64,000 bases of DNA from Sphaerisporangium fuscum (GTDB taxonomy: Bacteria; Actinomycetota; Actinomycetes; Streptosporangiales; Streptosporangiaceae): contig NZ_JAHDTF010000016.1 in the NCBI RefSeq assembly GCF_018531465.1, positions 1 to 64,000 of the forward strand. The letters are read 5' to 3'. Under the pieces are notes generated by a model. It did not search any database and had not been told where the DNA came from. It worked only from the letters and a program-made list of their open reading frames with translations. Positions 13,281 to 46,886 of this stretch are shown piece by piece. Each line of letters begins with the position of its first letter. Position 1 is the first letter of the stretch. The translations under genes were made by a program, and so were the position numbers.

Positions 13281-13383
13281 ACGGCACCCGTGGCCGGGGC
13301 GCTCAGGTGTCGATTAGGTGAACCGCCGGGAATCGCTATATGCTCTCCGAGCGCCGCGACGGGAACACCCTGAGCGGTGACCA

Positions 13384-13456
13384 GGGGCTATAGCGCAGTT
13401 GGTAGCGCGCCTCCATGGCATGGAGGAGGTCTGGGGTTCGAATCCCCATAGCTCCA
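13384..13456 (+). tRNA. tRNA-Ala(GGC), copy 1
   Basis: 73-nt cloverleaf. The acceptor stem GGGGCTA/TAGCTCC contains the G3-U70 wobble that identifies alanine tRNAs. The D-arm contains AGTTGGTAGC. The anticodon stem CCTCC/GGAGG has loop ATGGCAT (anticodon GGC, reading GCC). The T-arm is CTGGGGTTCGAATCCCCA. The 3' CCA is not encoded. The same sequence recurs at 28689 and 41824. Tandem tRNA-derived units follow immediately. Confidence 0.96.
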
Positions 13457-13698
13457 CAGTTTGTGGGTAGCGCGGCAGCGTCGATGGCATGGAGGAGGTC
13501 TGGGGTTCGAATCCCCATAGCTCCACAGTTTGCGGGTGGCGCGGCAGCGTCGATGGCATGGAGCAGGTCTGGGGTTCGAATCCCCATAGCTCCACAGTTT
13601 GCGGGTGGCGCGGCAGCGTCGATGGCATGGAGCAGGCCTGGGGCCCGTATCCCCATAGCTCCACAGTTTGCGGGTAGCGCAGGGTGTGCAGGTCTAGG
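13457..13698 (+). repeat. Tandem 69-bp tRNA-Ala-derived units, array 1
   Basis: Three head-to-tail 69-bp units (13457-13525, 13526-13594, 13595-13663) and a fragment from 13664 follow tRNA-Ala copy 1. Each keeps the anticodon loop, 3' anticodon strand, T-arm and 3' acceptor strand of the tRNA. Each lacks the GGGGCTA 5' acceptor strand, and the 5' anticodon strand is replaced, so none can fold as a normal tRNA. Decay increases with distance: the third unit has TTCGAAT changed to CCCGTAT in the T-loop. The rest of the gap to 13779 shows no gene. Confidence 0.9.
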
Positions 13699-13734
13699 GC
13701 ACTGGACACGCGGGTCGGGATTCACTACCTCTAG

Positions 13735-15051
<1,317 letters not shown>

Positions 15052-27552: not shown

Positions 27553-28551
27553 ATGGCCACATTGACGAGAAAGCGGACCGCGGGCCTGGCGGTGATCACC
27601 TCGCGCGGCAGGCTGCCCGTGATCGTGACCGCGGGTCTGCTCGTGGTGATGTTCGCCGCGGGCTCGCTGCAGTACGACGGGTTCTTCTCCGGGCAGGTGG
27701 TGCTCAACCTGCTGATCGACAACGCGTTCCTGCTGGTCGCGGCGGTCGGGGCGACGTTCGTGATCCTCACCGGCGGCATCGACCTGTCGGTGGGCGCCAT
27801 GGTCGCGCTGTCCACGATGATCTGCGCGTCGCTCGTGCAGCACCACGGCTGGCCGATCTACGCGGTGATCCCGCTGGTGCTGGCGGTGGGTGCGGTCGCG
27901 GGGTTCGTGATGGGCTACGTGATCCACCATTTCCGGATCCAGCCGTTCATCGCGACCCTGGCGGGCATGTTCCTCGCCCGTGGGCTGTGCTACGTCATCA
28001 GCGTCGACTCCATCTCGATCACCGATCCGGTGTTCACCGACCTGGCGCAGGCGCGGCTCCCGCTCCCCGGCGGCACGTTCGTCTCGCCGAGCGTGGTCAT
28101 CGCGCTGGTCGTGGTGGCCGCGGCGTTCTACGTGCTCCACTACACCAGGCTCGGACGCGGCGTGTACGCCATCGGCGGCGGCGAGCAGTCGGCGCTGCTG
28201 ATGGGCCTGCCGGTCGCCCGCATCAAGATCACGGTCTACACCGTGAGCGGGCTGTGCTCGGCTCTCGCCGGGGTGCTGCTGACGTTCTACATGCTGTCGG
28301 GCTACAGCCTGCACGCCGTCGGCATGGAGCTCGACGCCATCGCCGCGGTCGTCATCGGCGGCACCCTGCTGACGGGCGGGTCGGGGTACGTGCTCGGCAC
28401 GCTCCTCGGCGTGCTGGTCCTCGGCCTCATGCAGACGATCATCAGCTTCCAGGGGACGCTCAGCTCCTGGTGGACCAAGATCGTGATCGGGATCCTGCTG
28501 TGCGTCTTCATCCTGCTGCAGCGCCTGATCGGCACCCGGAAGGCCCGGTAG
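27553..28551 (+). CDS. Sugar ABC transporter permease (YjfF-like)
   Basis: 332-aa second permease of the BPD_transp_2 family. LTGGIDLSVGAMVALSTM and FIATLAGMFLARGLCYVIS are characteristic of YjfF. It ends the operon; a 52-bp gap separates it from the first permease. Two different permeases with one double-ATPase is the YtfQRT-YjfF arrangement, which supports the furanose assignment. Confidence 0.92.
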   Translation: MATLTRKRTAGLAVITSRGRLPVIVTAGLLVVMFAAGSLQYDGFFSGQVVLNLLIDNAFLLVAAVGATFVILTGGIDLSVGAMVALSTMICASLVQHHGWPIYAVIPLVLAVGAVAGFVMGYVIHHFRIQPFIATLAGMFLARGLCYVISVDSISITDPVFTDLAQARLPLPGGTFVSPSVVIALVVVAAAFYVLHYTRLGRGVYAIGGGEQSALLMGLPVARIKITVYTVSGLCSALAGVLLTFYMLSGYSLHAVGMELDAIAAVVIGGTLLTGGSGYVLGTLLGVLVLGLMQTIISFQGTLSSWWTKIVIGILLCVFILLQRLIGTRKAR

Positions 28552-28671
28552 CCGTCCGGTCCGGGGCAGGTCGAGGGCCCGTACGGCCTGCGCCCGGCCG
28601 AAGCGTGACACACGGCCTGGTGAGCCGGCCTTCCGGTTCCGGTTTCCTTGTGGTGGCCCGGTTCCTATAGA

Positions 28672-28688
28672 CTGTCCGCGCATCGCAA
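28672..28688 (+). promoter_or_regulatory. Putative -10 region of tRNA-Ala copy 2
   Basis: CCTATAGACTGT ends about 12-15 nt before the tRNA (TATAGACT at about 28667-28674). No strong -35 is visible. At copy 3 the comparable GATACACT lies at about 41772-41779. Confidence 0.35.
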
Positions 28689-28761
28689 GGGGCTATAGCG
28701 CAGTTGGTAGCGCGCCTCCATGGCATGGAGGAGGTCTGGGGTTCGAATCCCCATAGCTCCA
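28689..28761 (+). tRNA. tRNA-Ala(GGC), copy 2
   Basis: Identical to the tRNA at 13384 over all 73 nt, including G3-U70 and anticodon GGC; CCA is not encoded. It is followed without a gap by two tRNA-derived 69-bp units and a terminator. Confidence 0.96.
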
Positions 28762-28899
28762 CACATTGTGGGTAGCGCGGCAGCGTCGATGGCATGGAGC
28801 AGGCCTGGGGTTCGAATCCCCATAGCTCCACAGTTTGTGGATAGCGCGGCAGCGTCGATGGCATGGAGCAGGCCTGAGGCCCGTATTCCCATAGCTCCA
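28762..28899 (+). repeat. Tandem 69-bp tRNA-Ala-derived units, array 2
   Basis: Two units (28762-28830 and 28831-28899) are of the same type as array 1. The last one carries the same T-loop change GGCCCGTAT seen in the last full unit of array 1. A terminator hairpin follows 9 nt later, so tRNA and units are probably one transcript. Confidence 0.9.
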
Positions 28900-28908
28900 C
28901 AATTCTCG

Positions 28909-28941
28909 AAATCCCGCTCGATCATCCGATCGGCGGGATTT
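28909..28941 (+). terminator. Terminator of tRNA-Ala array 2
   Basis: An outer 9-bp stem AAATCCCGC/GCGGGATTT and an inner 5-bp stem CGATC/GATCG with loop ATCC form a strong hairpin directly after the last repeat unit. Confidence 0.85.
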
Positions 28942-29003
28942 CTGCGTTCACCGGGGTCGTCTGTGGCACAGTCGAGGGATCAAAAGATCGAAAGGTGTGA
29001 GTC

Positions 29004-37711: not shown

Positions 37712-37940
37712 GGGCGCGGCGGTGGTCTGAGGAGGAGGGAGGGTGAGGGACGAGCCCGGACGACGACGAAGGCCGCCGCCTCGAGGAGCGCCTCTCGCCG
37801 CCGAGCGGAGCGAGGCCATGGGCACGGGCGCGGCGGTGGTCTGAGGAGGAGGGAGGGTGAGGGACGAGCCCGGACGACGACGAAGACCGCCGCCTCAAGG
37901 AGCGCCCCTCGCACGCCGAGCGAAGCGAGGCCATGAGCAC
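37712..37940. repeat. 114-bp tandem intergenic repeat (two copies)
   Basis: Two head-to-tail units start at 37712 and 37826 (GGGCGCGGCGGTGGTCTGAG) and end with GCGAGGCCATG(G/A)GCAC. They differ by a few substitutions and one indel. They fill the gap between the SDR stop and the membrane-protein gene. A diverged copy occurs after proA (7655-7715). I see no gene in them. Confidence 0.8.
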
Positions 37941-40167: not shown

Positions 40168-41646
40168 ATGAAGTCACGAATCCTCGTCTGTGCGCTGCTG
40201 GCGCTCGCCCTCCTGTTATCCGGCTGCGGAGCGTCGTCCCACGACGCCTCCTCCGCCCGCCAGCCCGCCCACCCCGCGGGCCCGGCCCAGGGCCGGAGCG
40301 AGGAGGTGCCCCTCCGGACCCCCGGCGGCGGCCAGGGCACACCGTCCCAGGACACCATCTCCACCTTCGCGCTCGACGTCGACACCGCCTCGTACGACTA
40401 CGCCCGCGCCACCCTGCGCGAGGGCCGCCTGCCCGACCCGGCGCAGGTCAGACCCGAGGAGTTCGTCAACGCCTTCGACCAGGGGTACGCCGAGCCCGAA
40501 GACGACGGGTTCTCCGTCCAGATCGACGGCGCCAGGGCCGGCGCCGACGGCGCCGCTCTGCTGCGGGTCGGACTGCAGACCCGGACGGCCGACAGCGCGG
40601 CCCGCAGGCCCGCCGACCTGACCTTCGTGGTCGACGTCTCCGGCTCGATGGGCGACCCGGGCCGGCTCGACCTCGTGCTCGACGCCCTGCACACCATGGT
40701 GGACCGGCTCGGGCCGGGCGACGAGGTGGCCATCGTGTCCTTCAGCGACCAGGCGACGGTGCGCCTTCCGATGTCCCCCGTGAGCGACCGCGCCCGGCTG
40801 CACGAGGCCATCGACACTCTCGCCGTCGAAGGGTCCACCAACCTCGAAGCCGGGCTCGTGACCGGGTACCGGGAAGCCGCCCGCGCCTTCCGGCCGGTGG
40901 CGGTCAACCGGGTCGTCCTGCTCTCCGACGGCCTCGCCAACACCGGGGACACCTCCTGGCAGGGCATCCTCGACCGGGTCGAGGAGTACGCCGCCCGCCG
41001 GGTGGCGCTGCTGTGCGTCGGCGTCGGGCGGGAGTACGGCGACACGCTCATGGAGCAGCTCGCCGACCACGGGGACGGCGCCGCGCTCTACGTCGCCACA
41101 CAGGAGGAGGCACGCAAGGCGTTCGTCGAACGGCTCCCCGCCACGCTCGACCTGCGCGCCCGCGACGCCAAGGCCCAGGTCGCGTTCAACCCCGCCGCCG
41201 TCGCCTCCTACCGGCTCGTGGGGTACGAGAACCGGATGCTCTCCCAGCAGGACTTCCGCGACGACGCCAAGGACGGCGGCGAGGTGGGCCCCGGCCACGC
41301 CGTGACCGCGCTGTACGCGCTGCGGCTGCGCCCCGGGGCGTCCGGGCAGGTGGCCGTGGCCACCGTACGCTGGCAGGACCCCGACACCCGCGAGCCCGCC
41401 GAGACGAGCCGGGCCGTGGAGATGTCGCAGCTGTCCGGCGAGCTGTGGAACGGCGCCCCGCCGAGGCTCCAGGTGGACGCGGTCGCGGCGGCCTTCGCGC
41501 AGCGGCTCAGGCGCGCCGGCGACGAATTCTTCCCCGATGGGCTCGACGGCCTCGCCGGGCACGCCGAGCGGCTCGCCACCGCCACCCAGGACCCGATGGT
41601 GACCGAACTGGCCACCCTGATCCGCACGGCCCGCACCATGGAGTGA
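40168..41646 (+). CDS. VWA-domain lipoprotein (YfbK-like)
   Basis: 492 aa. Signal peptide with lipobox LLLSGC (Cys about 20), so membrane-anchored outside the cytoplasm. The N-terminal YfbK region TFALDVDTASYDYARATLREG precedes a von Willebrand A domain (about 150-320) with intact MIDAS: DVSGSMG, the Thr in GSTNLEAGL and the Asp in LLSDGLANTG. The C-terminal DUF3520 region ends the protein. Such proteins are thought to mediate metal-dependent protein contacts; the partner is unknown. It is monocistronic, ending in a terminator hairpin. Confidence 0.88.
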   Translation: MKSRILVCALLALALLLSGCGASSHDASSARQPAHPAGPAQGRSEEVPLRTPGGGQGTPSQDTISTFALDVDTASYDYARATLREGRLPDPAQVRPEEFVNAFDQGYAEPEDDGFSVQIDGARAGADGAALLRVGLQTRTADSAARRPADLTFVVDVSGSMGDPGRLDLVLDALHTMVDRLGPGDEVAIVSFSDQATVRLPMSPVSDRARLHEAIDTLAVEGSTNLEAGLVTGYREAARAFRPVAVNRVVLLSDGLANTGDTSWQGILDRVEEYAARRVALLCVGVGREYGDTLMEQLADHGDGAALYVATQEEARKAFVERLPATLDLRARDAKAQVAFNPAAVASYRLVGYENRMLSQQDFRDDAKDGGEVGPGHAVTALYALRLRPGASGQVAVATVRWQDPDTREPAETSRAVEMSQLSGELWNGAPPRLQVDAVAAAFAQRLRRAGDEFFPDGLDGLAGHAERLATATQDPMVTELATLIRTARTME

Positions 41647-41823: not shown

Positions 41824-41896
41824 GGGGCTATAGCGCAGTTGGTAGCGCGCCTCCATGGCATGGAGGAGGTCTGGGGTTCGAATCCCCATAGCTCCA
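41824..41896 (+). tRNA. tRNA-Ala(GGC), copy 3
   Basis: Identical to the copies at 13384 and 28689, with the alanine G3-U70 pair and anticodon GGC. The upstream word GTGACCA is shared with copy 1. A GATACACT -10-like sequence lies about 45 bp upstream. Confidence 0.96.
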
Positions 41897-42003
41897 CAGT
41901 TTGTGGGTAGCGCGGCAGCGTCGATGGCATGGAGCAGGCCCGGGGTTCGAATCCCCATAGCTCCACACTTTGTACGTAGCGCGGCAGCGTCGATGGCGTG
42001 GAA
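41897..42003 (+). repeat. Tandem 69-bp tRNA-Ala-derived units, array 3
   Basis: One full unit (41897-41965) and a 38-bp partial unit (41966-42003), which breaks off within the anticodon region, follow copy 3. The full unit keeps an intact T-arm. A terminator follows directly. Confidence 0.88.
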
Positions 42004-42009
42004 TGATCA

Positions 42010-42040
42010 CGCGCTGATCATTTCGATCGGCGCGGGTTTT
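42010..42040 (+). terminator. Terminator of tRNA-Ala array 3
   Basis: Stem CGCGC (42010-42014) with GCGCG (42030-42034) plus inner GATC/GATC pairing is followed by GGTTTT. It ends the tRNA transcript and lies before the convergent peptidase gene. Confidence 0.75.
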
Positions 42041-44910: not shown

Positions 44911-45031
44911 GGTGTGCGGTTCGGTGGGGGAAGGGTGCCGGGGTCGGGTCGGGCGGGTGGTGAGGGCCTGTGGTGAGGGAGGTGTGTGGGTTCGGTGGGG
45001 GAGGGGCGGGGTCAGGTTGGGCGGGTGATGA
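44911..45031. repeat. G-rich imperfect duplication at the afsA 3' end
   Basis: GGTGTGCGGTTCGGTGGGGG (from 44911) and GGTGTGTGGGTTCGGTGGGG (from 44981) begin two imperfect ~50-bp copies 70 bp apart. Both end with GGGCGGGTG(G/A)TGA. The second copy runs into the last codons of the afsA-like gene. The plus strand carries many G runs. The remainder of the 44760-45011 gap shows no gene. Confidence 0.55.
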
Positions 45032-46175
45032 TCAGGCCGGTGCTGGCGGGGGTGCCGTACTGGTCGATGGAGACGCGGACCGGGACCTCGCCGCCGGGGA
45101 GCGGGGCCTCAGGGTGGGCGTGGACCTGGCAGGGGTCGGTCAGTTCGACGTAACGGCGGAACGTCGCGTACATCTTGGCCGGTACGACGGGCACCGGGTG
45201 TGTGACCAGGAGGGCGGCCTGGCGCATGGCCTCCATGAGGGCCATCCCGGGTACGTGGTCGACCTCGTGGTCGAAGAGCACGGGGTGGGCGGGGTCCACT
45301 CGCAGCGGCCAGCCGCCGTCCGGTGACCCCTGCGCCAGCACGACGTCCTCGGGCCGGTCGCGGCCGACGAGCGCGGGATCGACCGGCTCGGCCAGGGACG
45401 CGGCGACAATGCCGGGGCCGCGCAGGGATGCGGCCGCAATGCCGGGGCCGGCCTGGGATGCGGCGACAATGCCGGGGCCGCGCAGGGATGCGGCGGCAAT
45501 GCCGGGGTCGGGCGGGGACGCGGCGGCAATGCCGGGGTCGGCCAGGGATGCGGCCACAAAGCCAGGGCCGGGCGGGGGCGCGGTGGCAATGCCGGGGTCG
45601 GCCAGCGATGCGGCGGGAATGCCGGAATCGGGTGGGGATGCGGCGGGGGTTCGCCGGGAGGAGGTGGCGCGCAGGCGGTCGTACGCCGCCCGCGAGACGC
45701 AGTCGAACCTGCCCTCGCCCATGCCGATGAGCTCCCCGTCACGGTAGAGGTCCACGTGGCCGCGCAGGCCTGCCAGGGTCGTGCCCCGGTGGCGCACCTC
45801 ACTGCGGGTGAAGCGCAGCACCAGGTTGGTCGGGCCCCAGCCGACGGTGAGGTCTCCGAGGCCGGCCTCGTACGACAGGTCCCACAGCAGGAAGCGGCGG
45901 TCGAGCGGGCAGTCGAGCTCGGCGTGGCTGACCACCAGGCCCGCCTGGCGTACGGTCTCGGCGATCAGCAGCGGATCGTGGCACCCTCCGACGGGCCGGT
46001 AGAAGCTGTGCGTCCGGGGCCACTGCGCGGCGAGCAGGGAGGTCTTCTCGTCGAGGCTCCGCCATCCGGTGATCATCACCTCCGACACGGCCGCGCGGTG
46101 CACCAGATGACGGGAGACGGGCTGCTCGAAAAAGGCGGGGCCGACCGATAACTCCGGCATGACGTGGACGTTCAT
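45012..46175 (-). CDS. AfsA-family gamma-butyrolactone synthase-like protein
   Basis: 387 aa from ATG 46175, behind GGAGGTGA. Two AfsA hot-dog domains are present: about 15-165 (VHRAAVSEVMITGW, WPRTHSFYRP, DPLLIAETVRQ, GWGPTNLVLRF) and about 275-387 (DPAHPVLFDHEVDHVPGMAL, MEAMRQAALLV, RYVELTDPC). AfsA/ScbA enzymes condense a beta-ketoacyl chain with dihydroxyacetone phosphate to start A-factor-type signal synthesis. Family members are about 300 aa; the extra length here is a linker of eight 10-residue repeats (about 182-262). It is divergent from an ArpA-like receptor across 90 bp. Confidence 0.88.
   Translation of the reverse strand: MNVHVMPELSVGPAFFEQPVSRHLVHRAAVSEVMITGWRSLDEKTSLLAAQWPRTHSFYRPVGGCHDPLLIAETVRQAGLVVSHAELDCPLDRRFLLWDLSYEAGLGDLTVGWGPTNLVLRFTRSEVRHRGTTLAGLRGHVDLYRDGELIGMGEGRFDCVSRAAYDRLRATSSRRTPAASPPDSGIPAASLADPGIATAPPPGPGFVAASLADPGIAAASPPDPGIAAASLRGPGIVAASQAGPGIAAASLRGPGIVAASLAEPVDPALVGRDRPEDVVLAQGSPDGGWPLRVDPAHPVLFDHEVDHVPGMALMEAMRQAALLVTHPVPVVPAKMYATFRRYVELTDPCQVHAHPEAPLPGGEVPVRVSIDQYGTPASTGLIITRPT
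45391..45650 (-). repeat. In-frame 30-bp minisatellite in the afsA-like gene
   Basis: Eight consecutive 30-bp units run from 45391 to 45630 with a partial ninth to about 45650. Most share a GGGATGCGGC core followed by CAATGCCGGGG. They encode 10-residue units such as DPGIAAASLR and GPGIVAASLA. Because the unit is a multiple of three, copy-number change keeps the reading frame. Confidence 0.93.
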
Positions 46176-46219
46176 GGCTGTCACCTCCAGAGTTCCTGCC
46201 TGAGAGGTAACGCGGCCGA

Positions 46220-46245
46220 TACAATACCGACCGAGCGGTTTCTTT
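46220..46245. promoter_or_regulatory. ARE-like operator and promoter between afsA-like and receptor genes
   Basis: TACAAT (46220-46225) is a near-perfect -10 for the rightward receptor gene. Overlapping it, ACAATACCGACCGAGCGGTT (from 46221) followed by TCTTT has ACCG/CGGT arms at 46226-46229 and 46236-46239. This resembles the autoregulatory elements bound by ArpA/ScbR-type receptors. In this 90-bp divergent space a bound receptor would cover the receptor promoter and sit near the afsA-like promoter. Confidence 0.65.
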
Positions 46246-46265
46246 CAGGAGGAACTTCATCCCTC

Positions 46266-46886
46266 ATGGCTAAACAGGCACGTGCACTGGCGACCAGGCA
46301 GCGGGTTCTCGAAGGCGCGGCGGAGGTGTTCGAGGAGTACGGCTACGCCGCGACCACCATGGCCCAGATCCTGGAGCGCTGCGGAGTGACCAAGGGGGCG
46401 CTGTACTTCCACTTCGGCTCCAAGGAGAAACTGGCGAGGGCGATACTCGAGGCCGACGAGAGGCTCCTGGCGTCCCTCGTCGCCTCCGACCGGCCGGCTC
46501 TCCAGGTGGTCATCGACGCGAGCCACGGCTTCGCCAGGGAGCTCCAGACCAACGTCATCGCCCGGGCCAGCGTGCGGTTGGCGATCGAGCACGGCACGTT
46601 CTCACAGGTCGAGTTCACCACCCACGTGATGTGGCAGGACGGTGCCAGGGATCTCCTGGCGCGGGCGGGGCGCGAGGGCGTGCTGCTGCCCGGCGTCGAC
46701 GTCGAGGCGGTGGCCGAGACCGTGGTCGCGGCCTTCACGGGGGCGCAGATCGTCTCCCAGGCCGTGTCGGACCGGCGTGACCTGCGCCGCAGGCTGACCA
46801 ATTTCTGGACCCTGCTGCTGCCGGGCATCGTGCGGCCGGAACTCGTCGGCCGCTTCGACCCCTCCGGCGGCTATATCAGCGTGTAG
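46266..46886 (+). CDS. TetR-family receptor, ArpA/ScbR-like
   Basis: 206 aa from ATG 46266; AGGAGG lies 13 nt upstream, slightly far. The N-terminus MAKQARALATRQRVLEGAAE and HTH TMAQILERCGVTKGALYFHFGSKEKLA closely follow the gamma-butyrolactone receptor pattern. The ligand domain contains the long helix QTNVIARASVRLAIEHGTF. It would repress until the butyrolactone binds. It is divergent from the afsA-like synthase. Its 3' end overlaps the convergent SDR by 16 nt. Confidence 0.87.
   Translation: MAKQARALATRQRVLEGAAEVFEEYGYAATTMAQILERCGVTKGALYFHFGSKEKLARAILEADERLLASLVASDRPALQVVIDASHGFARELQTNVIARASVRLAIEHGTFSQVEFTTHVMWQDGARDLLARAGREGVLLPGVDVEAVAETVVAAFTGAQIVSQAVSDRRDLRRRLTNFWTLLLPGIVRPELVGRFDPSGGYISV

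Follow-up and report, generated by a model that had tools for sequence, protein, structure and literature searches.

tRNA-Ala(GGC) genes and the repeats behind them

The stretch of DNA analysed here (64 kb, hereafter the window) contains three tRNA-Ala(GGC) genes of identical sequence, all on the plus strand and recognised by both ARAGORN and Rfam (67.3 bits each): locus 1 at 13384–13456, locus 2 at 28689–28761 and locus 3 at 41824–41896. Locus 1 is situated downstream of rsfS and histidine-phosphatase genes, with obg farther upstream, and is preceded by TATGCT (13339–13344, plus strand); locus 2 is preceded by TATAGA (28666–28671, plus strand). We take both hexamers to be -10-like, and the flanks that contain them are kept in several genus mates. 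The GGC anticodon reads GCC, the commonest alanine codon in 21 genes of the window (692 of 1204 alanine codons). Three tRNA-Ala(GGC) genes are also found in each of the ten genus-mate genomes compared, indicating that the tRNA loci are old. From 13384 to 41896, the three genes enclose two slots whose sizes vary widely among genus mates (12.5 and 5 kb in genome G006, 38 and 5.5 kb in G010), as if tRNAs in direct repeat framed a region of gene turnover.

An array of 69-bp, tRNA-derived units abuts the 3′ end of each of these genes with no intervening base, and on this arrangement, already described in the original prediction, ARAGORN, Rfam and Tandem Repeats Finder agree. The latter delimits 69-bp arrays at 13415–13680, 28720–28901 and 41855–42002, with 91–95 % match. 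Comparison with the tRNA resolves array 1, on the plus strand like the others, into three full units (A1, 13457–13525; A2, 13526–13594; A3, 13595–13663) and a 17-base stub of a fourth (13664–13680, also delimited by Tandem Repeats Finder), that is, about 3.25 copies and not the 3.5 first proposed. The copy numbers given for the other two arrays were right: array 2 has exactly two full units (B1, 28762–28830; B2, 28831–28899), and array 3 has one (C1, 41897–41965) plus a 38-base stub of a second (41966 to about 42003), or about 1.5 copies.

Each unit extends from the D-arm to the 3′ end of the tRNA and lacks approximately its first 13 bases. The stretch from the anticodon loop onwards and the missing 5′ acceptor strand had been recognised correctly, although the D-arm part and the replacement of CCTCC had been overlooked. 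The D-arm pieces retained are CAGTT..GGTAGCGCG, and the D-arm part of the unit reads CAGTTTGTGGGTAGCGCG, compared to CAGTTGGTAGCGCG in the tRNA. At the place of the 5′ anticodon strand CCTCC of the tRNA the units carry GCAGCGTCG, after which they follow the tRNA through the anticodon loop, ATGGCAT, and on to its end; the last 42 bases of A1 do not differ from those of the tRNA. The T-loop change GGCCCGTAT, which gives the loop CCCGTAT, is common to A3 and B2, the last full units of arrays 1 and 2, as had been pointed out.

A gapped pattern describing a repeated tRNA-Ala 3′ end had four matches in the window and none in 100 shuffles, which rules out a chance origin of the repeats. The units are not hidden full tRNAs either, since only the three full tRNAs reached the RF00005 score in the window and neither ARAGORN nor Rfam called any unit. 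When all 58 tRNA genes of this genome were tested, a trailing 3′ half was found behind the three tRNA-Ala(GGC) genes only (scores 69–84, p 0/200); the next lowest p was 0.005, for a score of 19 at 283 bases downstream of its gene. No stop codon interrupts the antisense (minus-strand) frames at 13314–13709 and 28508–28900, which cross arrays 1 and 2 and would encode 23-residue repeats, the unit length being a multiple of three. Their third-position G+C (0.70 and 0.65, respectively) argues against a coding role. A longer antisense frame over array 3, with a value of 0.87, falls for the most part beyond the units, where another gene occupies the opposite strand. In our judgement all three are open by chance.

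A terminator scan identified a terminator-like hairpin after array 3 (42010–42034, plus strand) and none after array 1. After array 2, a hairpin at 28908–28942 (plus strand) is strong in the predicted fold and was not listed by the scan, so that the proposal that two arrays end in a terminator agrees with the scan for array 3 and with predicted folding for array 2.

Occurrence of the unit in other genomes

Whole-genome pattern searches found no units in any of the ten genus mates. No unit follows the tRNA at the 27 tRNA-Ala(GGC) loci inspected, out of 30 in these genomes; the upstream flanks of the window loci are kept at several of them, suggesting that the trailer alone was added in this genome. 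The lowest shuffle p among the 27 was 0.04, at a locus (L034) with an 11-base match, CGGCAGCGTCG, to the block region 155 bases downstream; given 27 tests, we take it as a chance match.

In a wider search, a sensitive unit pattern matched three of 341 genomes of the family: the window's own genome (six units) and two others, G248 and G263, with one unit each, leaving 338 genomes without a match. An earlier and narrower search had covered 297 of the 341, and the G263 unit, which ends in CAGCTCCA, is missed by an exact 3′-end pattern and was recovered by the sensitive one. Among 296 sampled genomes of the class, which include 28 of the same family, only the window's genome had the tRNA-Ala 3′ end in repeated form; the exact pattern used fits tRNA-Ala ends only and lets G263-like forms escape. 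A scan for GCNCNGCAGCGTNNATGGCATGG over 84,980 species, each represented by one genome, gave four matches, none beside an ARAGORN tRNA; this exact pattern likewise misses the G263 form, and genomes near the window's own may be missing from the species set. A literature search at title level, with most subscription journals outside its scope, found no report of this arrangement among the titles listed.

G248 and G263 belong to the same family and to another genus, probably Nonomuraea, since the tRNA flank of a further genome of that genus (G268) looks like that of Nonomuraea gerenzanensis over the stretch compared. Each carries a single 66-bp unit that abuts a tRNA-Ala(GGC) gene, with a terminator-like hairpin a short way downstream, and around these loci the two genomes share about 90–93 % DNA identity. 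No unit was found at 28 other loci inspected in their genus (lowest p 0.03). The block GCAGCGTC is present in all full units of the three species, and the 5′ part of the unit, which includes this foreign block, is identical at 19–21 of 24 positions in the pairs compared between genera.

Furthermore, GGAGC and the T-loop CCCGT of the G263 unit match those of A3 and B2. The probability of such sharing was estimated for changes that fall at random on independent sites. Four identical changes are shared by A3 and the G263 unit, which have five and eight changes over 42 sites (p = 3.5e-5, or 0.003 by a generous count that equates all changes falling on a common site); B2 shares five of its seven with the eight of G263 (p = 1.5e-5; generous, 0.001), and A3 has two sites in common with the G248 unit (p = 0.001; generous, 0.012). 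Compared singly with G248 or G263 on the same basis, A2, B1 and C1 share no site or one (p from 0.03 to 1). The foreign block, together with the changes in the T-loop and anticodon strand common to A3, B2 and the G263 unit, indicates that the unit had a single origin. Downstream of the arrays, the spacer gave no blastn match between genera, and the sharing leans toward a lateral transfer of the unit over old descent with many losses.

According to the original prediction, absence from close relatives with no detected transcript would reduce the repeats to a local neutral duplication. They are indeed absent from all ten genus mates, but their presence in two species of another genus indicates that the duplication is not purely local. 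The comparisons point instead to a rare and real family of partial tRNA-Ala repeats with a single origin.

Probable copying and overwriting of the units

Changes common to separate arrays rule out independent slippage at each locus and look as if the arrays had been copied as blocks, as first proposed. Additionally, A2 and A3 share GCGGGTGG. The simplest history would start from an array whose first unit was tRNA-like and whose second was altered; it would have been copied as a block between loci and lengthened at locus 1 by unequal crossing-over. The T-stems, on the other hand, mostly track the local tRNA, being TGGGG/CCCCA here and AGGAG/CTCCT in G248 and, in part, in G263, which suggests overwriting by the adjacent tRNA gene in both genera; B2, C1 and G263 have further T-stem changes of their own. 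Changes shared between arrays, combined with local matching to the neighbouring gene, are the pattern expected of tandem partial duplication with gene conversion.

We therefore consider it fairly probable that the repeats are a mostly neutral partial duplication of a tRNA within the tRNA trailer, of single origin, spread by recombination and probably with no dedicated function. A piece of tRNA-Ala(GGC) from the D-arm to the 3′ end would have been duplicated in tandem, with its 5′ anticodon strand swapped for GCAGCGTCG, in one event from which the unit found in the two species of the other genus would also derive. Between the tRNA and the terminator the array could then have been lengthened by unequal crossing-over. 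Recombination across the identical tRNA genes could have moved copies of it, as whole blocks, between the three tRNA-Ala loci, and the neighbouring tRNA gene could have overwritten part of it. The units would probably be transcribed within the tRNA trailer and trimmed off at maturation. The sequences themselves show the form and position of the units, their shared changes, their rarity and a spacer-like drift in one species pair; we infer recombination as the copying route, co-transcription and lack of function, and likewise the choice between transfer and old descent with loss for the sharing across genera.

The mostly neutral reading is suggested by the divergence between G248 and G263, the one species pair available, in which the unit (55 of 66 positions identical) has diverged like the following 60 bases (47 of 59, with two gap columns); upstream of the tRNA, 93 of 100 bases are identical. 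Three observations fit it less well. The identity of the 5′ part between genera exceeds the neutral expectation and needs either transfer or selection. G263 and A3 share the T-loop yet differ in both strands of the T-stem, so that overwriting must flank the loop and spare it, which is awkward for this account. Finally, the predicted folds of whole arrays are better than those of shuffles (z -4.4 for array 1 and -4.2 for array 2), although the tRNA and the repeats themselves contribute to these values.

A partial tRNA duplication of this kind would be a natural case in which all genes of one tRNA species have received a copy of part of the tRNA, kept partly matched to that of the host, and bears on the homogenisation of tRNA genes and on the rise of tRNA pseudogenes in bacteria. 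It had also been proposed that several 3′ strands compete for the single 5′ strand of the tRNA. This is possible on energy alone, because in the predicted minimum for arrays 1 and 2 the tRNA 5′ acceptor strand pairs with the 3′ strand of the last unit, a minimum that may differ from real folding during transcription; if the units are transcribed and stable, they would offer a testable case of such competition for one tRNA 5′ half.

Integration, trailer RNA and other readings

Other explanations are possible and less likely than neutral duplication, foremost among them, if still rather improbable, that tRNA-Ala(GGC) served as the target of an element whose tyrosine integrase acted with the crossover in the anticodon loop, and that the unit is a leftover attachment arm plus core, amplified after the loss of the remaining element. 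Unit and tRNA match without a break from the anticodon loop, the supposed crossover region, as far as the 3′ end, as in an attR site. Sixteen tRNA-Ala 3′-half fragments inspected in the genus, from six genus mates and the window's genome, comprise seven with the tRNA-Ala(CGC) loop TTCGCAT, which have this same boundary, six with TTTGCAA and three with an altered loop; those with TTCGCAT or TTTGCAA have unrelated sequence before the loop. The TTTGCAA fragments probably derive from tRNA-Ala(TGC), a parent compared in the window's genome only, where its T-stem differs from theirs. An apparent integrated element of about 5.8 kb occurs elsewhere in the window's genome (G000:C40:40922–46721; L170, L171), from an intact tRNA-Ala(CGC) at 46648 to a 3′-half fragment at 40922, with integrase matches beside the tRNA (45971–46519) and just past the fragment (40557–40742). 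In Gordonia phages Yeezy and Nadeem, tRNA-Ala 3′ ends lie beside a tyrosine integrase, and Yeezy has GCAGCG at a place similar to the block. G248, in turn, has a short tyrosine integrase remnant some 160 bases behind another tRNA-Ala(GGC) gene (L100, about 2086–2253). From the fragments, the element, the phage 3′ ends and the remnant we conclude that integration at tRNA-Ala is common here.

The arrays themselves, nevertheless, do not look like plain attachment arms, in which no tRNA similarity is expected before the core, because the D-arm sequences CAGTT and GGTAGCGCG precede it. Neither an element nor a tyrosine integrase was found at the arrays, the G248 remnant being at another locus; no integrase family was detected among the 30 window proteins scanned (3.8–44.8 kb), and a genome-wide search with PF00589, which covers the tyrosine type of integrase, had 29 matches in the genome and none in the window. 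In the viral collection, a longer block pattern had no matches and a shorter one had two, neither followed by a tRNA 3′ end; of the 366 phage records matching the array, three were inspected among the 15 matches listed, and the block was absent from these three. Were the units such a relic, one would expect an element with GCRGCAGCGTCR before the tRNA-Ala(GGC) core in its attachment site. A partial parallel is provided by the ssrA islands of Dehalococcoides where, as reported (PMC3146451), repeated 3′ ends downstream of the gene have a common non-matching motif just before them, much like the foreign motif here. Unlike such ssrA and tRNA attachment repeats, which bound islands, many with integration genes, the units of the window abut one another, enclose no island and reach into the D-arm.

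It is less likely again that the units are released from the tRNA precursor and act as a small RNA or sponge, as in the rtT and leuZ trailers. In the E. coli tyrT operon, tandem repeats of about 178 bases behind the tRNA each carry a piece of the tRNA 3′ end, and the 3′ trailer of E. coli leuZ is a sponge RNA that lies downstream of the tRNA and acts independently; it is not known to be tRNA-derived or repeated. The arrays resemble tyrT/rtT in being tandem repeats with tRNA 3′-end sequence behind a tRNA gene; they differ in that most of the unit consists of tRNA sequence, D-arm through 3′ end, in its length of 69 bases and in its occurrence at three loci. They would resemble leuZ if they gave an RNA with an action separate from the tRNA, and differ from it in being tRNA-derived and repeated. 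While rtT is released during tRNA processing, as reported (PMC4986893), the window units have no known transcript.

Several features would suit a functional trailer. The units are placed after the tRNA and before a terminator-like hairpin, both in arrays 2 and 3 and in G248 and G263. Owing to the change of GGAGG to GGAGC, pairing of GGAGC with GCTCC around the T-arm is seen in the predicted folds of five of the six full units of the window, and in seven of eight units the minimum-energy fold includes a small hairpin made by the block. However, G248 and G263 differ in the unit as much as in the spacer, B2 and G263 have broken T-stems, A3, B2, G248 and G263 have altered T-loops, and most genomes of the family lack any match to the unit pattern. 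A conserved RNA structure is ruled out for single units, whose eight predicted folds are no better than those of shuffles (z -1.8 to +0.9, compared to -2.5 for the tRNA). The tRNA was the sole Rfam family reached; the RtT family had no match at the gathering score in the window, nor at E up to 1 in 13300–13800.

We regard as improbable a further possibility, that the unit behaves as a non-coding, laterally transferred tRNA parasite spread by recombination, which would settle behind tRNA-Ala genes, be copied to every identical tRNA locus and acquire the host T-stem by gene conversion; such acquisition would keep the homology needed for further spread. Much less credible is the proposed role of the units as decoy attachment sites shielding tRNA-Ala genes from integrases: these genes are integration targets in the genus, but the anticodon-stem inverted repeat flanks the crossover of tRNA-targeting integrases and its left half is replaced in all units, which are thus not copies of the tRNA target. 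The other roles proposed for the units, as a source of tRNA 3′-half RNAs or as a tRNA-dosage sink, are purely hypothetical. An assembly or sequencing artefact is the least plausible explanation, even though the genome of the window is a 93-contig draft with an estimated contamination of 6.95 %, since the three arrays, which differ in unit number and sequence, belong to a single contig of 250 kb, and two other assemblies, of two and three contigs, also have related units.

Two further repeats were observed in the window, a 114-bp direct repeat in two copies with 94 % match at 37712–37940, and 8.6 copies of a 30-bp repeat at 45388–45646, within a predicted minus-strand gene (45012–46184).
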